Source: Pedobacter sandarakinus (GTDB lineage Bacteria > Bacteroidota > Bacteroidia > Sphingobacteriales > Sphingobacteriaceae). Taken from it: DNA of 64,000 nucleotides. The stretch is from contig NZ_JAPIVG010000003.1 in the NCBI RefSeq assembly GCF_026240095.1, positions 310,001 through 374,000 on the forward strand, written 5' to 3'. This document shows, piece after piece, positions 6,869-57,240 of the stretch. The stretch's first letter is position 1; each line of letters begins with the position of its first letter. The notes beneath the pieces were generated by a model. The model saw only the letters and a list, made by a program, of their open reading frames with translations, was not told where the DNA came from and made no database searches. A program made the translations under genes and the position numbers.

Positions 6869-9460
6869 ATGGCGGTAAGGGGAAACCAGTTTAAAACCAA
6901 TACATTTAGAGATAAGGGTACCGAGAATACATCGGGAAGGGCGTCATCTAGTCGCCAGCCTAAAGAAAAAAAAGAGTATTTGCCACAATTCGACTTGCAG
7001 GATGGTCGTGCTATAAAAATTGTAGGTTTATTTTTTGTAATCCTTTCCCTTTACTTCTTAATTGCATTTACATCTTATTTATTTACTTGGCAAGATGATC
7101 AGAGCTATGTGATAGATGCAAATGGTGGGTGGTCTAATTTATTTAAAACTGCCGATGAACTCAAAGATTCGGGTGTAACTATCCCGGTGGTACAAAACTG
7201 GTTAGGTAAATTTGGGGCATTATTATCTCATCAATTCATTTATGAGTGGTTTGGTATAGCATCTTTTTTATTCGTTTTAGCATTTTTTATTATTGGTTAC
7301 CGCCTTTTATTTAAGGTTAAAATTTTATCCATTTCAAAGACACTCGGTTACAGCTTCTTCTTTTTACTATTTATTTCGCTCACATTGGGTTTCGCTCATA
7401 GTTTTTGGGCGGAATCTCCCCATTACGTAGAGGGGGAATTTGGCTATTGGAGCAACAAGCTTTTAGCGGCACAGATTGGGGCTGCAGGTGTTGCCGGTTT
7501 AATTGCCTTTGCTGGCCTAACCATCCTAATTATTGCGTATAATATCGACTTCAAATTGCCCGAACGCAAGGCTAAAGAAGTTTATCTTGACAATGAAACA
7601 ACTGATTATGTAAATGAAGTGCGTGCACAGTTTGCTCATAAAGATGAAGTGGATGAGCCGTCAGAAGCGATCGAATTTCCGGTACGCGAAAAACCAGTAA
7701 CCGAACGCAAACAGCAAAACGTAGTACTTCAGCCAAATCGATTTGAAGCCACCAAGGAGCAGGAAGAAGATACGGCCTCGGTTATACTTTCGCCTTTGGC
7801 AACGAACTTGCCATTAGCCACTGCTGCTGCAACGGCTTTGCCATTAACTGTTGAACCAGCGGTGCCAGAAGAAAAAGAACCAACATTCACTATAGAAAAA
7901 ACAGAAGAAGAAAAGAAATCTGAAGATTTAGTTGAGCAATTTGGTAATTATGATGAGAAGTTAGATTTGTCTGGCTACCGATACCCAACGGTTGATCTAC
8001 TTGAGAATTACGGTACCAATAAAATCTCGGTTAATGCAGAGGAATTGGAGGCCAACAAAAATAAAATTGTTGAAACCCTCAATCACTACAATATCGAGAT
8101 TGATAAAATTAAAGCGACTATTGGTCCCACGGTTACACTTTACGAAATTATCCCGGCACCAGGCGTGCGCATTTCAAAAATTAAAAACCTCGAAGATGAC
8201 ATCGCACTTTCACTAGCGGCCCTGGGAATCCGGATTATTGCACCTATGCCTGGAAAAGGAACTATTGGTATCGAAGTACCTAACCAACATCCGGAAATGG
8301 TGCCCATGCGGAGCATTTTAAACACGGAAAAATGGACCCAAAATGCAATGGATTTGCCTATTGCCTTGGGGAAAACCATAAGCAACGAGGTTTTCATTGC
8401 CGATTTAGCCAAAATGCCTCACTTACTGGTAGCTGGGGCTACAGGGCAAGGAAAATCGGTGGGTATCAATGCGATATTAGTATCGCTACTTTTCAAAAAA
8501 CATCCCGCACAATTAAAATTTGTGTTGGTAGATCCAAAAAAAGTAGAATTAACCCTATTCAATCGAATAGAACGCCACTTCCTGGCGAAATTGCCTGGAG
8601 AGGCCGATGCCATTATAACCGATACCAAAAAAGTGGTGAACACTTTAAATTCTTTATGTATTGAAATGGATCAACGCTATGATTTATTAAAAGATGCTCA
8701 GGTAAGGAATTTAAAAGAATACAACGATAAATTTATAAAGCGCAAGCTAAATCCAAATAACGGACATCGGTTCCTGCCCTTTATTGTATTAGTGGTAGAT
8801 GAGTTTGCCGATTTGATGATGACAGCAGGAAAGGAAGTGGAAGCACCAATTGCCCGTTTAGCTCAATTGGCACGTGCCATTGGTATTCACCTGGTGTTGG
8901 CTACGCAGCGTCCATCAGTAAATATTATTACCGGTACAATCAAAGCAAATTTTCCAGCCAGGCTAGCATTTAGGGTGTTGTCTAAAATTGATTCGAGAAC
9001 GATTCTGGATAGTGGCGGGGCAGACCAATTAATTGGTAGGGGAGACATGTTGTTATCAACAGGTAGCGACTTAATCAGGCTACAGTGTGCTTTTGTTGAT
9101 ACACCTGAAGTCGATCGCATTTCAGAATTTATTGGCAACCAACGCGGCTATGCGGATGCCTATCAGTTACCAGAATATATTGATGAAGCAGGGGAAGGAA
9201 GTAAAGCAGATTTTGATCCGAATGAACGCGACAAGTTTTTCGAAGATGCAGCCAGGCTTATTGTAATGCATCAACAGGGTTCTACATCGCTTATCCAGCG
9301 TAAATTAAAATTGGGATATAACCGTGCAGGAAGAATCATCGACCAGTTAGAGGCTGCAGGGATTGTTGGCCCATTCGAAGGTAGCAAAGCAAGAGAAGTT
9401 TTGTATCCGGATGAGTACTCTTTGGAACAATTCTTGAATAACATGGATGACAAGGGCTAA
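6869..9460 (+). CDS. ftsK: DNA translocase FtsK/SpoIIIE
   Basis: A septum-located motor that pumps chromosome ends during division. It has 863 residues. Four membrane helices lie in roughly residues 48-230, followed by an acidic linker to about residue 390. The ATPase motor has Walker A GATGQGKS near residue 525 and Walker B FIVLVVDEFADLMM. The C-terminal winged-helix gamma domain (about 795-863, RKLKLGYNRAGRIIDQLE) reads the DNA polarity sequences. The linker is much shorter than in E. coli, as is usual outside proteobacteria. Start is ATG 6869. A LolA-like gene follows 64 bases later. Confidence 0.96.
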   Translation: MAVRGNQFKTNTFRDKGTENTSGRASSSRQPKEKKEYLPQFDLQDGRAIKIVGLFFVILSLYFLIAFTSYLFTWQDDQSYVIDANGGWSNLFKTADELKDSGVTIPVVQNWLGKFGALLSHQFIYEWFGIASFLFVLAFFIIGYRLLFKVKILSISKTLGYSFFFLLFISLTLGFAHSFWAESPHYVEGEFGYWSNKLLAAQIGAAGVAGLIAFAGLTILIIAYNIDFKLPERKAKEVYLDNETTDYVNEVRAQFAHKDEVDEPSEAIEFPVREKPVTERKQQNVVLQPNRFEATKEQEEDTASVILSPLATNLPLATAAATALPLTVEPAVPEEKEPTFTIEKTEEEKKSEDLVEQFGNYDEKLDLSGYRYPTVDLLENYGTNKISVNAEELEANKNKIVETLNHYNIEIDKIKATIGPTVTLYEIIPAPGVRISKIKNLEDDIALSLAALGIRIIAPMPGKGTIGIEVPNQHPEMVPMRSILNTEKWTQNAMDLPIALGKTISNEVFIADLAKMPHLLVAGATGQGKSVGINAILVSLLFKKHPAQLKFVLVDPKKVELTLFNRIERHFLAKLPGEADAIITDTKKVVNTLNSLCIEMDQRYDLLKDAQVRNLKEYNDKFIKRKLNPNNGHRFLPFIVLVVDEFADLMMTAGKEVEAPIARLAQLARAIGIHLVLATQRPSVNIITGTIKANFPARLAFRVLSKIDSRTILDSGGADQLIGRGDMLLSTGSDLIRLQCAFVDTPEVDRISEFIGNQRGYADAYQLPEYIDEAGEGSKADFDPNERDKFFEDAARLIVMHQQGSTSLIQRKLKLGYNRAGRIIDQLEAAGIVGPFEGSKAREVLYPDEYSLEQFLNNMDDKG

Positions 9461-45390: not shown

Positions 45391-46110
45391 ATGTATAAGT
45401 GTATTATTGTTGATGATGAACCGCATGCGGTAGAGGGTTTAAAGCGTTATATTGCCACAATACCCAACCTAGAGCTTGTTAATAGTTTTACAGATCCTGT
45501 TAAGGCACTGATGGAAATAACTGCAGGAGCAAACGTAGATTTGATTTTGCTAGATGTAGATATGCCTGGTTTAAATGGAACGACACTGGCACCAGAAATC
45601 AGGTCTAAAACAAACAAGCTGGTTTTTACAACTGCCCATAAAAAATATGCATTCGAGGCTTTTGAAGTTCAGGCAGATGCTTTTTTATTAAAGCCTTACA
45701 CCCAAGGCAAATTTGCTGTAACCATTAACAAACTTTTCCCGCACACAAATGAAACAGTAGATGATTTCATGTTTATAAAAAGCAAAGAAGAAAATTTTAG
45801 ACTTATTAAAGTTAAGTATGCCGATATTATAGCTATAGAAAGCAAGTTGAATTATGTGCAGGTACATACTCTTAACAAAAGCATTCTCACCTATACTTCA
45901 TTAGCAGAAATTTCTAAAAAGTTAAAAATATACGATAGGTTTTTGCAATTTCAACGCAGTTTCATCATTTCGCAGGATTACATTGATTACATAGAGGGGA
46001 GTTCGATCATCATGATCAATGGAATCAAAATTAGTGTTGGCGAATACTACAAAAAGTATTTCAATGAGTTTATCAGTAGTAAGCTATTTAAAGCTAAACG
46101 AAGAACTTAA
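45391..46110 (+). CDS. LytTR-type response regulator
   Basis: A 239-residue DNA-binding regulator. The receiver (about 1-120) has DDEPHAVEGL, phospho-Asp in LILLDVDMPG and the conserved Lys in FLLKPYTQ. The LytTR domain (about 130-232) has FIKSKEENFRLIKVKYADII and the loop pattern FLQFQRSFIIS, which binds DNA as a beta sheet. The kinase at 46269-47369 is the expected partner, 158 bases downstream. Confidence 0.93.
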   Translation: MYKCIIVDDEPHAVEGLKRYIATIPNLELVNSFTDPVKALMEITAGANVDLILLDVDMPGLNGTTLAPEIRSKTNKLVFTTAHKKYAFEAFEVQADAFLLKPYTQGKFAVTINKLFPHTNETVDDFMFIKSKEENFRLIKVKYADIIAIESKLNYVQVHTLNKSILTYTSLAEISKKLKIYDRFLQFQRSFIISQDYIDYIEGSSIIMINGIKISVGEYYKKYFNEFISSKLFKAKRRT

Positions 46111-46268
46111 AATGCTGGTGTACGCCAGCCGAGAGCGGTACGGTGAGTCGGCATCTTCAATGCAACACTATATTTGAGATTTGTAAATGATAGGTGAAAC
46201 TGCAACCGAGCACAGCGGTTATAAAATGAATTGTACATAGCGAATGGGGTTAAGGTGAATAAAATTAG

Positions 46269-47369
46269 ATGGGCGAGCACATTTCTTCTTGGTTTAAGCG
46301 AAATTGGATACATGTATTAGTTTGGTCGATCTTTATTGCTTATGAGATTGGCGTGGTGGGCCTCGTTCTTGGAACCTTCAGTAATCCTATTAACTATGCC
46401 AGCCACTACATCATTATCATTAGTTTCTTCTATTTTAATGCCCATAAACTATTACCGTGGGCATTAACGAAAGAAATTAACACATTTTGGTTGTTGCCAC
46501 TTTCCCTGGCAATTAGTATCTCGATTTATATTCTGGCTAACTACGAGCTGGATATTTTACTTACAAAAAATCATCTTGTAGAGACCGCAACCCCAATAGT
46601 ATTAGATACGAACTATATTCTCAAAATTCTTTATCGAAGTGTTTACATTTTAGGCTTCTCTGTAGCATATTTTTTCCTGATCAACTATTTACGAGAAAGA
46701 CAGCTAACCGAGCGCATGCATAACGAGCATTTAGAAAGGTTAATTGAGGAAGAAAAGATGAAACGATCTTTAGCTAAAGCCCAGAATGACTTTTTGAAAG
46801 CCCAGATTAATCCACATTTTCTATTTAATACATTAGACTATATATTTCATACCATCAGCGAAGTATCACATGATGGTGCCGATGCGGTAATGACCCTATC
46901 TGAGATGATGCGCTATGCCGTGGATTCTACAGATGTAGATGATGCCGTTTTATTAGGCGACGAGCTGGAACAGGTAAACAAATTAATTTACATCTATCAA
47001 CTGCGGAAAAATATGGAGTTAAAAATTATGACCTACTTTAGCGATGAAGTAATGGCTTTGCGTATTATTCCATTGGTGGTGTTAACATTGGTAGAGAATA
47101 TTTTTAAGCACGGCAATGTGAACCATCCAGATTTACCAATATTAATTAGTGTAGTATTGGCAGAGAAGAAACTATGCATTGAAACCCGTAACGCGATAAA
47201 CCTTAAGCCTAAAATAGGAGGTACCAATGCTGGGATGAATAACATCAAAGAACGTTTGCTTTTTGCTTACGGTGATGAAATAACCTTCAACTTTGGGCAA
47301 GAAGATCAGTTGTTTTATACCAAAATTACAATCCCGATAGGTTTTCTTCATTCATCCCCAAAAGATTAG
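46269..47369 (+). CDS. LytS/YehU-type sensor histidine kinase
   Basis: A 366-residue kinase with four predicted membrane helices (about residues 12-150). The HisKA-like box (LKAQINPHFLFNTLDYIFHT) carries the phospho-accepting His. The ATPase domain has VLTLVENIFKHG and GMNNIKERLLFAYG. It is probably the partner of the LytTR regulator just upstream. Such pairs in Bacteroidota often control cell-surface genes; here the polysaccharide locus next to it is an attractive target, without direct proof. Confidence 0.9.
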   Translation: MGEHISSWFKRNWIHVLVWSIFIAYEIGVVGLVLGTFSNPINYASHYIIIISFFYFNAHKLLPWALTKEINTFWLLPLSLAISISIYILANYELDILLTKNHLVETATPIVLDTNYILKILYRSVYILGFSVAYFFLINYLRERQLTERMHNEHLERLIEEEKMKRSLAKAQNDFLKAQINPHFLFNTLDYIFHTISEVSHDGADAVMTLSEMMRYAVDSTDVDDAVLLGDELEQVNKLIYIYQLRKNMELKIMTYFSDEVMALRIIPLVVLTLVENIFKHGNVNHPDLPILISVVLAEKKLCIETRNAINLKPKIGGTNAGMNNIKERLLFAYGDEITFNFGQEDQLFYTKITIPIGFLHSSPKD

Positions 47370-48186: not shown

Positions 48187-51100
48187 CTATATTAGCGGGA
48201 GTTCCTGCGCACTTCCCATTGCAATATTTCCTTCAAGCGGTATTTCAAACCAAAATTCTGACCCTTCGTTAACTTCACTTGTAACGCCAATTTCTCCATT
48301 GTGGCGGTGTATGATTTGTGCAGAAATATATAACCCCAATCCCAGACCAGAAAAATGACTTGAAGATTCTTCTACTCTAAAGAAACGATCGAATATAAAT
48401 TTCGCTTTATCTTTCGGAATACCAATACCCTGATCTTTTACCGATAACCGAAGTTTCTTTCCATCTGATTTTGCTTTTATCAATATCTCTTTCCCATGAG
48501 GAGAGTATTTAAGTGCATTTGATAAAAAGTTAGATATCACTTGTTCAATTCGATTGCGGTCTGCTGTAATTAAAACTTCGTCGATTTCTTTCTTGATGAT
48601 TTGGTTGCCCAAATTGCCTTGTATGCCATCTATTGATTCGCCGACAATCTCTTTAATCTGGAAAGAGGAAATGCTAAATGCCATTTTGCCCGCCTGAATT
48701 TTTGTTACATCAAGTAAATCATCTACCAAGCGGGTTAGCTTGCCAATTTGCCTGTTCGCCTTATCAATAAACCCAAAAATATTACCAAACTTTTCTTCCC
48801 TCGCCATCTTCATCGCAAATTGTAAATATCCTTTTATAGAGGTAATCGGCGTTTTCAATTCGTGACTTGCAATACTCATGAACTCGTCTTTCTTGTTCAT
48901 AAGTTCTTTGGTAGTACGTTGGGCAATCATCAGGTCTGTTACTTCAAAGCCGAAAAAAGAAATTCCGTCTATCTTACCATCGGCAGCAAACACTGGATTT
49001 ATAATCAAATCAAACCAGGTGTCTACAAATTCTCCGGTTTCAAGATCTTTCTGGCGAAGTTTGTATGAATTAGCAATGTAGGTTTTCCCTGAACGAATTA
49101 CCTGTTCTTCAATTGCGCTAAGTTCCTTTGTTGCAAATTGCGATTCTGGGTGCATCGGTTCGCCAATATAACTCCTTTGATCGTCGAAGTTGGAAAAAGC
49201 CTCGTTCACGAACTCATATAACAATTGCTTTCCTCTACGAATGCTAATTAACGCCGGCGCTTTTTTAAAGATGCTATAAAATTCATCTTGCTGCTTTTTA
49301 ATTAGGCGCTGTAATTCGTTTCTTCGTTTTTCGTTATGTTTCTGCTTGGTGATATCTATAACGTAAGTAACCGCATCCTTAAGTTCCTCATCTAACACTG
49401 CCGATCCCAGTAGCACATCTATCGTTTTACCATCTTTCCTAATGTATTGCTTTTCGAATGGGGGGCAAAAACCTTCATTCTTTACCAGCTCTGCCGAAAT
49501 TTTGCTGATTGGTAAAAACTCATCCGGCGTTATATTTTGCCAATGAATTTTACCCTGGTTAAATTCCTCTTCGGTGTAGCCAAGCATATCAAGGAAGATT
49601 TTGTTCGCCATTTCAATCATACCCGTATCAATATTCGAGAAGAGCATTCCAATTACATTAGAATCGAATATTTTCCTAAATTTCCTTTCAGTATTGCTTA
49701 GTTTAATTTCGGTATCTGCTAAAACGGAAATATCCAGGATAGATCCCACCATTCGATATGGCACCTGGTTCTCATCGAATAAAATACTACCCCGATCAAG
49801 AATTGTGGCGTAACTTCCATCGGCCTTGTTTAGTCTGTATTGTGCTGTCCACTGTTCCTGGCTGTTGTTGATGGCATTGTAAACACTTTCTTTTACACGC
49901 TGCCTGTCGTCTGGGTGGATGATATCAAAATAAAAAGAAATATTATTGTTTCCAGCCCCATTTTTATAGCCAAACATGGTGGTAAAATTATCACTTCGCC
50001 ACATGGTATTATCGGCAAGGTTCCAATCCCAAATGGTATCATTGGTAGCTTGCGCAACTAAATTGAACCTGGTTTCGCTTTCTGATAAGCGTTCGGTCCT
50101 TTCTTTTACTTTATCTTCAAGATCTTGGTTTAATCGCTTAAGATTCTCCCGGGTACCAAGAAGCTCGTTATAGTTTTTCTTTAATTTATCTTCAGATATT
50201 TTTTGCTTGCTAATATCTGTTAACGTGGCTGCAAACCCATCAGACATCTTCACCGCTACCAGCTCGAGCCAGACTTTATCATTTAACTTAAATTCGAATT
50301 GCAGCGGATTTCCTTTTTCTACTACGCCCACGTATCTTTCTAATAAGGCAGCTTCGGTAAGTTCGGGTAAACCTTCCATCAGCCGGGCTTTAGTAAGGTC
50401 GTCCTTAGATTTGCTAAGAATTTTCAGCGCAGCATCATTAAAAGATATGCACTCAAAGTCTGTAATAAAGTGCTGTTTATTTCTAACAGCTTTAAACGCA
50501 AGTACACCATTCAAACTTGCGTTAAATACACCGTTTATAATATTGTTAAGTTCGGTAAGTTTAGAAATATCTACAAAAGTAATTACAACTCCGTCATTCT
50601 TCTTATCCTTGCGGGTATAAGGCATAATGCGCATTAGGCTGCTGTCTCCATTTCTAATTTGGATCTCTTTTTCAACAACCTTTCCGGTTTTTAATACCTG
50701 CTGAATATCACTGTTCAGGTTATCTACCTTTATGTTATTCGAAATTTGTAGAATAGAGCGACCAATATCTGCCTCAATAAGGTTAACCATCGCAATTGCA
50801 GCGGCATTAAACTTGCGGATATACATGTTGCTATCCACAAATATTTGCCCAATTTCAGTACTTCTAAAATAGTTATCTAAATCATCATTTAATTCCAGAA
50901 GTTCTTTAATCTTTAGCTGATGTTCGGTGTTGAGTGTATGCAGTTCTTCATTTAACGACTGCAGTTCTTCATTGCTCGATTGCAGTTCCTCATTGGCCGA
51001 AAGAAGCTCTTCGTTAGTAGACTGCAGTTCTTCATTGGTGGTTTCCATTTCCTCAACAGCCAGCTGCAGGTTGCTTTTGGTTTCGTTGAGTTCGGCCTCT

Positions 51101-53031
51101 AATTCGAAGATATATTCGTTCTGGGTGCCACTGTGGGCATCTAAAACACCCATTTCGTTTTTCTCTGGAATAGTCTCGAGCGTACTCTCTCCAAAAACGA
51201 TCATGGTATAAGGATTGCCATTTTGAGTGACAGGCGGTTGTACGGAAATATTTAAATAAATTTCCTGGTTATCTTTAACAAAACGGATCCTTTTGAGGTG
51301 TGTCGTTTCATTTTCTTTCCAAGCTTTGCGAAGTGCTGTATTTAATGTAATTGATACCTCTTTAGGTACCATTTTCAGGATATTAAGTTCAATCTTATCT
51401 TCAGGTAAAGAAAGATACTGCCGATAATCGCCCAAAGCATCCTGCATGATGTAAGACTTGTCTACATATACAGCAATGTATCCTAAATCTTTGGTTAAGA
51501 ACTGTGTGAGGCTCTTCTCAATTGGGCTCATCACGAAATCAACATTGCTCGGCTTCTTATTTCCTTTTTCGATGATGGATCTGGTACCGGTGTTGTACGT
51601 GTTATAGCTTGCGTAATTAATGATACCCGTTTTTTGATAAATTTTCCATTTGCTTGATACTTCTGTAAAACCATCTTTTAATGATGATGCAGTCTCACTA
51701 GAACCTAAAAAAAGATAACCTCCATGTACCAGTGAGAAATGAAATACAGAGAGTATTTTTTCCTGAAGAATATTATTCACATAGATGAGCATGTTCCTAC
51801 ACGTCACCATGTCGTTTTTAATAAATGGTGGCGATTTAATTACATCATGCTTTGCAAAAACCACCATCTTCCTGATTTCTGGGAGCACGCCATAGAATGC
51901 TCCATCCTGTACGAAATACTTTTTAAATAATTTAGATGGCACCTCATTACCGATGCTTTCAGGATACTGGTTCTTGGCCGCAATCTCGATACTCTTTTCA
52001 TCGATATCTGTTGCGAAAATTTTAATGTCTATCTTTTTTCCTGATTTTTCTACACGTTCTTTTGCCAGAATAGCAACGGTGTAAGCTTCCTGCCCTGTAC
52101 TACAGGCACATACCCACACTTTTAACGTATCGCCGTTTTCCTTTTTCTGGATAATTTTATTCAGGTGATCGCTAAAAGCTTCAAATGCTTGTGTATCTCT
52201 AAAAAATTTGGTTACGCCAATTAAAAAATCTTGCGCCAAACGAGCCGTTTCCTGCTCGTCTTTTTTTAACAGACTTACATAACGTTCAAGTGATTTGATC
52301 CCATTCTCATTCATCCTACGGCCAATTCTTCTAATTATTGTTGGCGTTTTGTAGAGATTAAAATCGTTTCCGCTCTGTTGATGGACAATCTTGAAAATAT
52401 CATCGAGCAAGAGTTCATTTATTTTTCCGTTTTCGAGTATTTTAATGGGTTCTTCGTTAACATAGTTGAAAAGCTCACGGTGCATATCAGCAGGTTGCAA
52501 AATGAAATCTGCATTTCCTGATGAAATTGCGCTGTTTGGCATACCGTCAAACTTTGCTGAGCCAGGTTCCTGAACAATCACCATCCCGCCTGCTTCTTTG
52601 ATTGCTTGAATACCCTTAGTGCCATCAGTACCTGTACCAGAAAGGATAATGGCAATAGCTTTCTCTTTCTTGTCTTTGGCCAATGTGTATAAGAAATGGT
52701 CTATTGCTGTATTTGGAGCTTTAATTAGCGATTTTTCTGCCAGTTTTAGCCTACCATGGCTAACCGTCATTAATTTGTTATTTGGGATAATATATACACA
52801 ATCTTGCTGTATGGCCATTTCGTTAACGGCCTCGAAAACTTTCATGTGTGTGTGCTTGGCAACAAGCTCTACCAGTAGGCTTTTATAATCTGAAGATAAA
52901 TGTTGTATAACAACAAAGGAGAAGCTTGTATTGGCGGGCATGTGATCAAAAAATTCATGAATAGCTTCGAGGCCACCAGCTGATGCACCGATGGCGACAA
53001 TGTACTTATCATAACGTTTTATAGATTCCAT
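48187..53031 (-). CDS. CheB-CheR-PAS hybrid sensor histidine kinase
   Basis: A 1614-residue cytoplasmic signalling protein. In order: CheB methylesterase (about 7-190; IGASAGGLEAI, FVVIQHLSSD, ILSGTGTDGT), CheR methyltransferase (about 205-475; VWVCACSTGQEAYTVAILAK, ATDIDEKSIE, TCRNMLIYV), and a coiled coil of repeated N-E-E-L units (about 660-700). PAS-type domains follow to about 1370, then HisKA (HELKTPITSIKGYL, near 1387) and a HATPase domain (VKDQGIGIPKDKAKFIFDRF). No receiver is attached. I chose ATG 53031; a TTG lies 5 codons upstream. The gene follows the phytochrome by 26 bases. Confidence 0.93.
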   Translation of the reverse strand: MESIKRYDKYIVAIGASAGGLEAIHEFFDHMPANTSFSFVVIQHLSSDYKSLLVELVAKHTHMKVFEAVNEMAIQQDCVYIIPNNKLMTVSHGRLKLAEKSLIKAPNTAIDHFLYTLAKDKKEKAIAIILSGTGTDGTKGIQAIKEAGGMVIVQEPGSAKFDGMPNSAISSGNADFILQPADMHRELFNYVNEEPIKILENGKINELLLDDIFKIVHQQSGNDFNLYKTPTIIRRIGRRMNENGIKSLERYVSLLKKDEQETARLAQDFLIGVTKFFRDTQAFEAFSDHLNKIIQKKENGDTLKVWVCACSTGQEAYTVAILAKERVEKSGKKIDIKIFATDIDEKSIEIAAKNQYPESIGNEVPSKLFKKYFVQDGAFYGVLPEIRKMVVFAKHDVIKSPPFIKNDMVTCRNMLIYVNNILQEKILSVFHFSLVHGGYLFLGSSETASSLKDGFTEVSSKWKIYQKTGIINYASYNTYNTGTRSIIEKGNKKPSNVDFVMSPIEKSLTQFLTKDLGYIAVYVDKSYIMQDALGDYRQYLSLPEDKIELNILKMVPKEVSITLNTALRKAWKENETTHLKRIRFVKDNQEIYLNISVQPPVTQNGNPYTMIVFGESTLETIPEKNEMGVLDAHSGTQNEYIFELEAELNETKSNLQLAVEEMETTNEELQSTNEELLSANEELQSSNEELQSLNEELHTLNTEHQLKIKELLELNDDLDNYFRSTEIGQIFVDSNMYIRKFNAAAIAMVNLIEADIGRSILQISNNIKVDNLNSDIQQVLKTGKVVEKEIQIRNGDSSLMRIMPYTRKDKKNDGVVITFVDISKLTELNNIINGVFNASLNGVLAFKAVRNKQHFITDFECISFNDAALKILSKSKDDLTKARLMEGLPELTEAALLERYVGVVEKGNPLQFEFKLNDKVWLELVAVKMSDGFAATLTDISKQKISEDKLKKNYNELLGTRENLKRLNQDLEDKVKERTERLSESETRFNLVAQATNDTIWDWNLADNTMWRSDNFTTMFGYKNGAGNNNISFYFDIIHPDDRQRVKESVYNAINNSQEQWTAQYRLNKADGSYATILDRGSILFDENQVPYRMVGSILDISVLADTEIKLSNTERKFRKIFDSNVIGMLFSNIDTGMIEMANKIFLDMLGYTEEEFNQGKIHWQNITPDEFLPISKISAELVKNEGFCPPFEKQYIRKDGKTIDVLLGSAVLDEELKDAVTYVIDITKQKHNEKRRNELQRLIKKQQDEFYSIFKKAPALISIRRGKQLLYEFVNEAFSNFDDQRSYIGEPMHPESQFATKELSAIEEQVIRSGKTYIANSYKLRQKDLETGEFVDTWFDLIINPVFAADGKIDGISFFGFEVTDLMIAQRTTKELMNKKDEFMSIASHELKTPITSIKGYLQFAMKMAREEKFGNIFGFIDKANRQIGKLTRLVDDLLDVTKIQAGKMAFSISSFQIKEIVGESIDGIQGNLGNQIIKKEIDEVLITADRNRIEQVISNFLSNALKYSPHGKEILIKAKSDGKKLRLSVKDQGIGIPKDKAKFIFDRFFRVEESSSHFSGLGLGLYISAQIIHRHNGEIGVTSEVNEGSEFWFEIPLEGNIAMGSAQELPLI

Positions 53032-53057
53032 AATTCTGCGCTGCAATATTCCCTTTT

Positions 53058-54587
53058 TTAATTGTACTGCTGTGATGATTGAAAATCGAACATGAAATTT
53101 TTTAATGATTCAGCTGCTTCAACTTCTAATCTAGACCATTCTTCAGCTTGTCCGTATACCGTTTGAAGCCAAATCTTGAACGAATTACGTGGATGATATT
53201 TCAAACCATCTTTAGCGAAATTAATTGCCTGATTTGGATCACCTCCCCATTTAATATCTTTTATCGACTCTGGTCTAAAACACATAATGAAGTCACTTCC
53301 GTTATTACTTGTTGGTATAACAAGCACACCACTTGCAATATCAGTGTAAGCCCTTGCTTCATCATAAACTTCTCCAAGTTCGTGGCTTGCAAACACGGCT
53401 CCCGAAGTCTTTCCAGCTGCCCATAAAAGCAAATTTTCTAGTGCTTCTTCATCGGGAACAGCGCCCTCAGAAGTGATTTTTCCGTTAATGCTCACCACAA
53501 ATCCTGATGCCTTAAACAAAGAAAGCAGGTTTTGGTTTTCGTCATCGATCAATCCGTTCACAATACTGCCTTTATTAAAAACATTTTCGGTAATTGCTGC
53601 CTGTATTTTCAATAAGGTAGTAGATTCTGTTAGCGTTTCTTGCATGGTTACACCGGCAATACGCGATGAGATCTCCATACTTAACCATTCGAAAATTGAA
53701 CGATGCTCGTTACTTAAATATTTAGGGGTATTGTGATGACAAGATATTAAACCCCAAAGTTTTCCATCAACCATAACCCTTATAGACATTGAGGCCATTA
53801 CGTGCATATTGGCCATATATTCCAGGTGCACGCCTGCTACGCTACGGAGATTGCAATCAGATAGGTCGAGAAAACCATTGCTTACAGGATTTATTACAGG
53901 ATATAATTTGTAAGCGATATAACTTCTGTTAGGAATTAACCTGTATGGATTATTTGTATATAGTGCTCTTGCTTGTTTAGGTACATCAGATGCCGGGAAT
54001 GTTTGCCCTAAATAAGGCTCAAGTTCACCGGTAATTTCTTCCGCAACTACGCTTCCATTCCAGTTTTTATCAAAACGGTACATCCGTATGCCATCAAACC
54101 CAGAGATTCGCCTTATTTCTTTAATGCTTGCCTCGCAAATTTCTTCTAAACTATTCGTATGCTCTATAGTGGATATAAAAGACCGCACTTCTTTAAAAAC
54201 TTCTGTAAAGCTTCTAGGCGGATTCGAATCTTCCTGTTCAATTTCCAGAATGAGCATATCTTTCTTTACGTGTAAAAGCACATTAACGGGAATGGCCTTA
54301 CCATTAACGAGTATTGGTAGCAAGAAAGGTATTCTATTCCGCTCGCCTTTGGCTACTTCAGCGCCAAGCATTTCAATATCGCTGCTACTGAACCAATCTT
54401 GTAATTTGGTCCCGACGGTCTCTTGCACCGTTTTAGTGGTAAGCTGATCAATATTTTCGCTACCCTGGATAATTTCGAAGGTCTGTTTATCTGCTACAAG
54501 CAAGTAACCGTAATCTTGTATGGAATTGGTTTGATGGATGGCAAGATTTCCACAGAACTGCGCATCGTAATTTTTCATTTCAGGCAT
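53058..54587 (-). CDS. Bacteriophytochrome photosensory module without a kinase
   Basis: A 509-residue PAS-GAF-PHY protein that ends after PHY. Cys 12 (QFCGNLAIHQTNSIQDYGYL) aligns with the biliverdin-binding Cys of bacteriophytochromes. The GAF domain has FPASDVPKQARALY and GVHLEYMANMHVMASMSIRV with its conserved His. The PHY tongue motif is present as KWGGDP and PRNSF. Usual bacteriophytochromes continue into a histidine kinase, but here only a short helix follows. The hybrid kinase gene starts 26 bases downstream on the same strand, so it is the likely output partner. Confidence 0.92.
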   Translation of the reverse strand: MPEMKNYDAQFCGNLAIHQTNSIQDYGYLLVADKQTFEIIQGSENIDQLTTKTVQETVGTKLQDWFSSSDIEMLGAEVAKGERNRIPFLLPILVNGKAIPVNVLLHVKKDMLILEIEQEDSNPPRSFTEVFKEVRSFISTIEHTNSLEEICEASIKEIRRISGFDGIRMYRFDKNWNGSVVAEEITGELEPYLGQTFPASDVPKQARALYTNNPYRLIPNRSYIAYKLYPVINPVSNGFLDLSDCNLRSVAGVHLEYMANMHVMASMSIRVMVDGKLWGLISCHHNTPKYLSNEHRSIFEWLSMEISSRIAGVTMQETLTESTTLLKIQAAITENVFNKGSIVNGLIDDENQNLLSLFKASGFVVSINGKITSEGAVPDEEALENLLLWAAGKTSGAVFASHELGEVYDEARAYTDIASGVLVIPTSNNGSDFIMCFRPESIKDIKWGGDPNQAINFAKDGLKYHPRNSFKIWLQTVYGQAEEWSRLEVEAAESLKNFMFDFQSSQQYN

Positions 54588-55050: not shown

Positions 55051-57240
55051 ATGGATAATAAAAAAGCAGTAAAAACAAAACCTCAACAGCAGGAAAATGA
55101 AAAAACAAGGCAACTATCGTCTTCGTTTTCTGATGCTTCTGGAGCAAGTATGACCACCAATCATGGTGTAAAGATCAATGATGATCAAAATTCACTAAAA
55201 GCGGGAGAAAGAGGAGCCACGCTGTTGGAAGATTTCATCCTGCGGGAAAAAATCACACATTTTGACCACGAAAGAATTCCTGAGCGTATTGTACATGCAA
55301 GGGGTTCTGCGGCACATGGAGTATTTAAAGTTTATGAAGACATGTCTGACCTTACCAGGGCTGCATTTCTTTGCGATCCTGGAGCGGAAACCCCAGTGTT
55401 TGTGCGCTTTTCTACAGTAGCTGGTTCCAGGGGTTCTACCGATTTGGCAAGAGATGTACGCGGCTTTGCTGTTAAATTTTACACCCAAGAAGGAAATTTT
55501 GACCTTGTTGGTAATAACATGCCTGTATTCTTTATTCAGGATGCAGTAAAGTTTCCTGATTTGATACATGCTGTTAAGCCAGAACCTGATAATGAGATGC
55601 CTCAAGCTGCTTCGGCACACGATACCTTTTGGGATTTTATCTCTCAAATGCCAGAATCTGCACACATGGTGATGTGGGCTATGAGTGATAGGGCACTTCC
55701 AAGGAGCTACCGCATGATGGAAGGTTTCGGTGTACACACTTTTAGATTTGTGAATGCAAAAGGCGTAGCAAATTTTGTGAAATTTCACTGGAAGCCCCTA
55801 TTAGGTGTTCATGCTGTAGCATGGGATGAGGCACAGAATATCTCCGGTAAAGATCCTGATTTTCATAGAAGAGACCTCTGGGATGCCATTGAGGCGGGTG
55901 CATTTCCAGAATGGGAATTGGGTGTACAAATCGTATCGGAAGAAGATGAATTTAAATTCGATTTCGATATCTTAGATCCGACCAAGCTAATCCCAGAAGA
56001 GCTCGTGCCTGTTCAACGGATTGGGAAAATGACCCTCAATAGAAATCCAGATAACTTTTTTGCAGAGACCGAGCAAGTTGCTTTCCATGTTGGACATGTG
56101 GTTCCAGGTATCGACTTTACTAACGACCCGCTACTACAGGGTAGATTGTTTTCTTATACAGATACGCAACTAATCCGTTTGGGCGGTCCAAATTTCCACG
56201 AAATTCCGATCAATCGTTCTGTGGCTCCTGTACATAACAACCAGCGAGATGGTTACATGCGCCAGACCATTAACCGCGGTAAAACAAGTTATGGTCCAAA
56301 CGCCATTGCTGCAAATGATCCACAGCAGGTTTCGGAGGCAGAAGGCGGATTTGTAAGTTATAACGAACGTATTGATGCAAAGAAAATCAGAGCGAGAAGC
56401 AGAAGCTTCTTCGACCACTTTTCGCAGGCTAGTTTATTTTTCAATTCACAGAGTGAACCAGAAAAAAACCATATTGTAGATGCGCTTAGTTTTGAATTAG
56501 GAAAGGTGAAGATGGTTGATATAAGGGAGAGAATGTTAGCCGTACTGGTGCAAATCGATACAGACTTAGCCAATAAGGTTGCTGCAGCACTCGGGTTATC
56601 TATTCCAGAAATTCCTTTAGAAGCGCTTAACAACAGCATTCCAGCCGATGGTGACAGGGAAGCTTATGCTTCGACCAATCCAAAATCAACATTGGAAAAA
56701 TCTGCAGCTTTAAGCATGGCAGATACAATTAAAGACTCCATCAAAACCAGGAAAATTGCGATTTTAGCGGCTAACGGTGTTGATGAGGTTTCGCTAAGCG
56801 CAGTTAAAGATAGTTTAGTTGCCGAAGGTGCGGTTGTACACATTATTGCACCTATGCTTGGTGAAATTAAATCAACAGGAAAAAAGACAATGGCTGTTGA
56901 TGAGAGTTTTCTTACTGCTGCTTCAGTACTATATGATGCCGTTTACATTCCAGGTGGTAGCGATGCCATCAACGTCTTACTTGATGAACCGAATGCCATT
57001 CATTTTATTAATGAAGCCTTTAAGCACTGTAAGGCCATTGCAGCCCACCAGGAGGCTATGCCAGTATTAGAAGCAACTTATTTTGCAAAGCAACTTCCTA
57101 AAGACAAGGATACTAAAGCCGCTTTGGCAGCTGGATTGCTGGTTAGCGGCGATGCCAAATCAACTTCAGAAACATTTACAAAAATGATTGCTATGCACAG
57201 ATTCTGGAATCGGGAGAAACCAAGAAAAGTGCCGGCATAA
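55051..57240 (+). CDS. katE: Large-subunit (clade 2) heme catalase
   Basis: Splits hydrogen peroxide to water and oxygen. It has 729 residues, longer than small-subunit catalases. The catalytic His lies in [16 protein letters not shown], the Asn region in [20 protein letters not shown], and the heme-ligand Tyr in [14 protein letters not shown]. The C-terminal domain (about 560-720, [13 protein letters not shown], then VYIPGGSDA) is the DJ-1/GATase-like domain of clade 2 catalases such as HPII. A Fur/PerR-like box lies upstream, a hairpin downstream, and an ankyrin gene 670 bases away. Confidence 0.96.

Follow-up and report, generated by a model that had tools for sequence, protein, structure and literature searches.

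A kinase-less bacteriophytochrome and a CheB-CheR histidine kinase as conserved operon partners in Bacteroidota: a likely split light sensor

The window (the whole stretch of 64,000 nucleotides of Pedobacter sandarakinus that was analysed, lying in a 4.09-Mb assembly on contig 23) contains a bacteriophytochrome gene without a kinase domain and, directly downstream, a gene for a large histidine kinase that also carries CheB and CheR domains. The locus raises the question whether light input and signalling output are divided here over two proteins, as a sequence-only reading had proposed. The conserved operon described below supports that division, in so far as it concerns the genes; direct contact and light-controlled phosphorylation are only inferred.

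The two genes and their products

The presence of both genes is shown. The features of the phytochrome are the following.

53058..54587, minus strand: kinase-less bacteriophytochrome photosensory module, PAS-GAF-PHY, 509 aa (Pfam; motifs kept in 78 pairs; AF2 model matching solved phytochrome photosensory modules)
54552..54554, minus strand: Cys12, the predicted biliverdin-binding cysteine (invariant, 78/78)
53826..53828, minus strand: His254, GAF chromophore-pocket histidine (invariant, 78/78)
53178..53192, minus strand: PRNSF motif of the PHY tongue (PRxSF in 77/78, 99%)

Pfam assigns PAS_2 (residues 14-117), GAF (147-307) and PHY (327-502), the tridomain expected of a phytochrome photosensory module. 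The chain ends at residue 509, some 7 residues after PHY, without an output domain; it lacks the fused C-terminal histidine kinase of a canonical bacteriophytochrome (BphP) and does not reach the cut-off of the NCBIfam BphP equivalog (score 277.8, cut-off 1040). The bilin-binding cysteine and the pocket residues of bacteriophytochromes (PASDIP, the GAF His/Tyr and the PRxSF tongue) are invariant or nearly so over the 78 phytochrome-kinase pairs described below: the PASD(V/I)P motif is kept in 97-100%, with Asp201 of PASDVP invariant, and His254/Tyr257 in 100%. The AF2 model is of moderate confidence (mean pLDDT 74, with weak pocket loops) and matches the fold of solved photosensory modules at a TM of about 0.7. 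The nearest solved profile match is FiDCB (9jry), a cyanobacterial dual-Cys phytochrome; membership of that dual-Cys class was rejected, since there is no Cys ahead of the GAF His. We infer from sequence alone that the 509-residue protein is a phytochrome photosensory module, biliverdin attachment and Pr/Pfr conversion being unproven.

The kinase gene has the following features.

48187..53031, minus strand: CheB-CheR-PASn-HisKA-HATPase kinase, 1614 aa (Pfam; orthologue beside the phytochrome in 108 non-redundant loci)
52471..52998, minus strand: CheB methylesterase domain, without a REC domain in front; Ser17, His44 and Asp136 invariant
51643..52404, minus strand: CheR methyltransferase domain, SAM-site motifs kept
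50857..51117, minus strand: coiled coil, modelled as a single helix of ~84 residues
50935..51042, minus strand: five tandem heptads fitting the MCP methylation consensus [AST]xxEExx[AST]
50566..50880, minus strand: PAS_10 domain (Pfam)
49741..49998, minus strand: PAS_3 domain (Pfam)
49348..49650, minus strand: PAS_9 domain (Pfam)
48688..48891, minus strand: HisKA with the phospho-acceptor His1390 (Pfam and alignment)
48232..48561, minus strand: HATPase_c (Pfam and alignment)

Its ATG at 53031 leaves an intergenic gap of 26 bases to the phytochrome, which an alternative TTG start would shrink to 11 bases. Pfam places CheB at residues 12-187, CheR_N/CheR at 210-463, several PAS domains, HisKA at 1381-1448 and HATPase_c at 1491-1600; the full order is CheB, CheR_N, CheR, an unassigned PAS-like stretch, the coil, PAS_10, more PAS, HisKA and HATPase_c. 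Across the orthologues the CheB catalytic residues, the SAM motifs of CheR and every kinase box show little or no variation. With its H, N, G1 and G2 boxes the protein qualifies as a two-component histidine kinase. A fold search with its middle segment returned only generic PAS-helix-PAS matches of poor superposition.

CheB and CheR in one chain, followed by the coil and PAS_10, are also the marks of the CheB/CheR fusion proteins (KEGG K13924, cheBR; PMC11302069), a type to which the window kinase conforms (the KEGG assignment itself was not run). With such fusions, which carry PAS_10 and histidine kinase parts, it has the CheB-CheR_N-CheR-coil-PAS_10 core in common, and with some of them also HisKA-HATPase. 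The clade of the window kinase differs in being tied to a phytochrome gene; the family's remaining CheB-CheR fusions, with 35-52% identity in CheB, fall into a class of their own at lower scores.

The sequence-only reading thus held on the reading frames and domains (the kinase-less phytochrome, the 26-base gap and the 1614-residue kinase were confirmed by Pfam and a check of the open reading frames) and on the retention of the biliverdin Cys, PASDVP, GAF His and PHY PRxSF, all near-invariant in the 78 pairs.

Conservation of the gene pair

In the 400 genomes searched within the family, phytochromes fall into two sharply separate classes: a short one (~500-530 aa, 40-69% identity) and a fused one (~740 aa, about 27-32%). 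The neighbouring genes were retrieved for every clear match of the short class. The CheB-CheR kinase is the next downstream gene, on the same strand as the short phytochrome, in 78/78 pairs, a count that includes the window and a single locus from another family. The gaps mostly range from -32 to +50 bases with a median of 9, and some of the genes overlap. A second scan, of named genomes that partly overlap the first set, gave 80 loci from three orders (Sphingobacteriales, Chitinophagales and Cytophagales), with Pedobacter, Mucilaginibacter, Parapedobacter, Sphingobacterium, Olivibacter, Chitinophaga, Taibaiella, Flavisolibacter, Niastella, Pontibacter and others among the genera; 79 of the 80 are paired. 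After removal of duplicates across both scans 108 non-redundant pairs remain, and chance adjacency is therefore excluded. The kinase-less phytochrome and the CheB-CheR kinase are conserved operon partners. Rare adjacency in relatives had been set in advance as a refutation of the sequence-only reading; the opposite was found in both scans.

The pairing also holds in the reverse direction. Close orthologues of the kinase, separated by a clear score gap from other CheB-CheR proteins, numbered 46 in 251 genomes, and 44 of them lie beside a phytochrome. The two loci without one (L147 and L148) keep deletion scars of the phytochrome right before the kinase: at L147:3783-3931 the first ~22 and last ~20 phytochrome codons remain and the middle is deleted, while at L148 (about 7400-7965) the last 19 codons stand behind what looks, by eye, like a heme oxygenase fragment. 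Reversed-sequence decoys in the scar search gave zero matches. All 46 orthologues therefore have, or had, a phytochrome, and the scarred loci indicate that the kinase can outlive it and so probably has other inputs through its PAS domains. Part of the kinase has been lost in a Sphingobacteriales metagenome bin, an exception to the pairing (L220:5926-10515, in the order heme oxygenase, short phytochrome, PAS-HK). Here a natural domain deletion has left the short phytochrome paired with a 795-aa PAS-HK protein from which CheB-CheR is gone. A phytochrome of 514 aa that is closer to the fused type (L140:6953-8497, genome G420) serves as a negative control; the kinase is missing there and no CheB-CheR gene is a neighbour.

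The short phytochromes form a monophyletic clade against the fused BphPs sampled (support 0.969). Phytochrome and kinase distances are correlated (r=0.88, 117 pairs), without an unlinked control gene for comparison. The histidine kinase domain seems to vary among the orders, with the CheB-CheR-PAS core staying: in the Chitinophaga and Pontibacter types it resembles the histidine kinase of the fused BphP at least as much as that of the window. At L220 the loss runs the other way, CheB-CheR being gone and PAS-HK kept.

Two alternative explanations can be weighed on these data. The short phytochrome might be what is left of a fused bacteriophytochrome after truncation or a frameshift, in line with its lack of a kinase that most BphPs have. 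This is all but excluded, for the same form of ~500-520 aa, with all pocket residues, recurs as a monophyletic clade in >100 genomes. Alternatively, the operon might be shared for regulation only, as light or stress genes, by proteins that never touch. No interaction data exist to contradict this, yet we consider it unlikely: a photosensory module needs a partner if it has no output of its own, the pairing has held across three orders with gaps mostly below 50 bases or overlapping genes, and both phytochrome-less kinases lost the phytochrome by local deletion at the same spot. We favour a functional partnership, a split two-protein red/far-red light sensor, as the likely reading of the pair.

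Operon partners and a second phytochrome

Further genes join the pair in its relatives. In 36/108 loci the gene immediately upstream of the phytochrome encodes a heme oxygenase (in 30 on the same strand, often overlapping); in 23/108 the kinase gene is followed at once, on its own strand, by one for a single-domain CheY-like response regulator; and in 16/108, L120 and L205 among them, all four genes are found together. These occurrences are shown, and heme oxygenase, phytochrome, kinase and regulator together form a set of genes for a two-component light sensor based on biliverdin. The window has a pared-down version of this operon of bphO, phytochrome, kinase and regulator. It has no heme oxygenase gene, as the sequence-only reading had stated, and no response regulator gene beside the kinase, where 23 of the relatives' loci have theirs. 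A heme oxygenase gene is nevertheless found elsewhere in the same genome (contig C12:235401-235961), so that a supply of biliverdin exists. Scans for promoters and terminators gave no more matches than shuffles did.

The canonical systems (DrBphP, Agp1, Stigmatella BphP and the BphO-BphP-BphR sets) have PAS-GAF-PHY, the N-terminal Cys, the pocket residues and two-component output in common with the window pair, and the heme oxygenase and regulator genes near the phytochrome in its relatives recall the BphO-BphP-BphR sets. In contrast to these, the window kinase is a separate protein, of another lineage and with CheB-CheR.

The genome encodes a second phytochrome, an ordinary fused BphP of 749 aa on contig 12 (L001:496-3166, L153:6650-10001). 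The BphP gene is followed immediately by one for a single-domain response regulator and, at a distance of ~500 bases from its end, by a heme oxygenase gene. Together with the window pair this makes two phytochrome systems in one genome. We do not favour the idea that the pair arose when this fused BphP was split, the histidine kinase being only ~28% identical to the BphP kinase and the photosensory modules only ~27%.

The fused BphP suggests another alternative, in which the short phytochrome heterodimerises with it and the CheB-CheR kinase is a mere neighbour. In its favour, the genome has such a protein and phytochromes are dimers. Against it, the short form occurs without any fused BphP in some genomes (G014, G023, G079 and G085) and therefore need not pair with one; the short and fused forms are only about 27-32% identical; and the invariable partner is the kinase. 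We regard this explanation as very unlikely, and retain the kinase as the partner.

Two neighbours in the window may be recorded. A large-subunit catalase with a DJ-1-like domain (55051-57240) is divergent from the phytochrome operon; a conserved link between the two was sought in the neighbour clusters of relatives and was not found. Next door on the other side (45391-47369) is a separate two-component pair, made up of a LytTR response regulator and, after it, a sensor of the His_kinase family.

The methylation coil and a proposed mechanism

Chemotaxis adaptation, by CheR and CheB acting on MCPs, shares with the window kinase the two enzymes and a Glu-Glu methylation consensus, the form of which is known from chemoreceptors. 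The window system differs in that the enzymes are fused, CheB has no receiver domain, and neither MCP nor CheW is present: no MCPsignal domain was found in any of 60 genomes of the genus (0/60), and no CheW in the window's genome. The MCP substrates and CheA/CheW that make up a chemotaxis adaptation system are thus not in evidence, and the fused CheR/CheB are without their usual substrates. Separate genes for CheR (272 aa) and for CheB (197 aa) do occur in the window's genome, after a gene for a 1194-aa HK-containing protein (L152:2269-7638), in spite of the lack of MCP domains in the genus sample and of CheW in the genome.

The coil between CheR and PAS_10, a single helix in a high-confidence model, has five in-register heptads fitting the consensus in every one of the 78 kinases; shuffled versions of the coil never give more than three. 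More distant CheB-CheR fusions retain the heptad pattern while other letters change. At least four tandem sites were counted in 156/159 CheB-CheR ORFs, mostly orthologues of the window kinase, as against 2/35 other kinases, both of these being one and the same protein. The link of the coil to CheB-CheR is thus strong but not exclusive. A 782-aa kinase without CheB/CheR (L109:10169-12517; the same protein at L181:2484-4832) also bears a coil of tandem NEEL units that fits the consensus for methylation.

The sequence-only reading had taken methylation to be part of the output. We consider the CheB/CheR part more likely to be an adaptation module than an output, because the L220 locus keeps phytochrome and PAS-HK without CheB-CheR and because no chemoreceptors were found in the genus. 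The opposite view, that the phytochrome governs CheB/CheR enzymes which modify another protein and that the histidine kinase is secondary, can point to the invariant catalytic residues of CheB and CheR and to a CheB-CheR-PAS core better conserved across orders than the histidine kinase part. It is unlikely in the light of the L220 deletion, of the absence of an MCP substrate in 60 genomes of the genus, and of the CheY-like regulators that join the operon.

In the mechanism that we propose, with the histidine kinase as output, the 509-aa protein would bind biliverdin as a phytochrome photosensory module (binding is inferred). In place of a fused kinase it would control, in trans, the CheB-CheR-PAS histidine kinase with which it is co-transcribed. 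Contact would most likely be made between the C-terminal helix of the phytochrome and the PAS/coiled-coil part of the kinase. Light would alter the autophosphorylation of His1390 and, with it, phosphotransfer to a CheY-like regulator; the gene for this regulator lies downstream in some relatives and, in the window's genome, presumably at another locus. Such direct control in trans is inferred, without contact or phosphorylation data, and we hold it to be fairly likely. Photoreceptors that act in trans are known, namely short LOV proteins and RpBphP1-PpsR2. These are likewise light sensors with no fused output or an unused one, whereas in the window system the sensor gene is constantly paired with that of a two-component kinase. 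We found no account of the architecture in the searchable literature, most subscription papers being outside the search.

The fused CheR/CheB, probably not acting on the absent chemoreceptors, may rather methylate and demethylate the tandem Glu-Glu coil of the kinase itself and so reset its sensitivity. CheR, CheB and the consensus sites do share one chain, as a kinase that accepts methyl groups in cis would require. Modification in cis is an inference that we hold to be possible rather than probable. The bolder reading, a self-adapting light-input kinase with the phytochrome in trans and its own CheR/CheB writing and erasing methyl groups on the same-chain coil, is tentative too, and we hold it to be less likely than not.

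Phytochrome signalling is usually studied as light acting on a fused kinase within one chain. A natural two-protein version, kept over three orders of the Bacteroidota, would allow input and output to be mixed, titrated and swapped, which would be useful for work on mechanism and for optogenetics. The kinase is, moreover, a clean test case for whether methylation by CheR/CheB can tune a kinase directly, without chemoreceptors. If true, a self-adapting kinase would represent methylation-based sensory adaptation outside chemotaxis, and the in-cis scheme could extend to the wider family of CheB/CheR fusion proteins, which are widespread and little studied.
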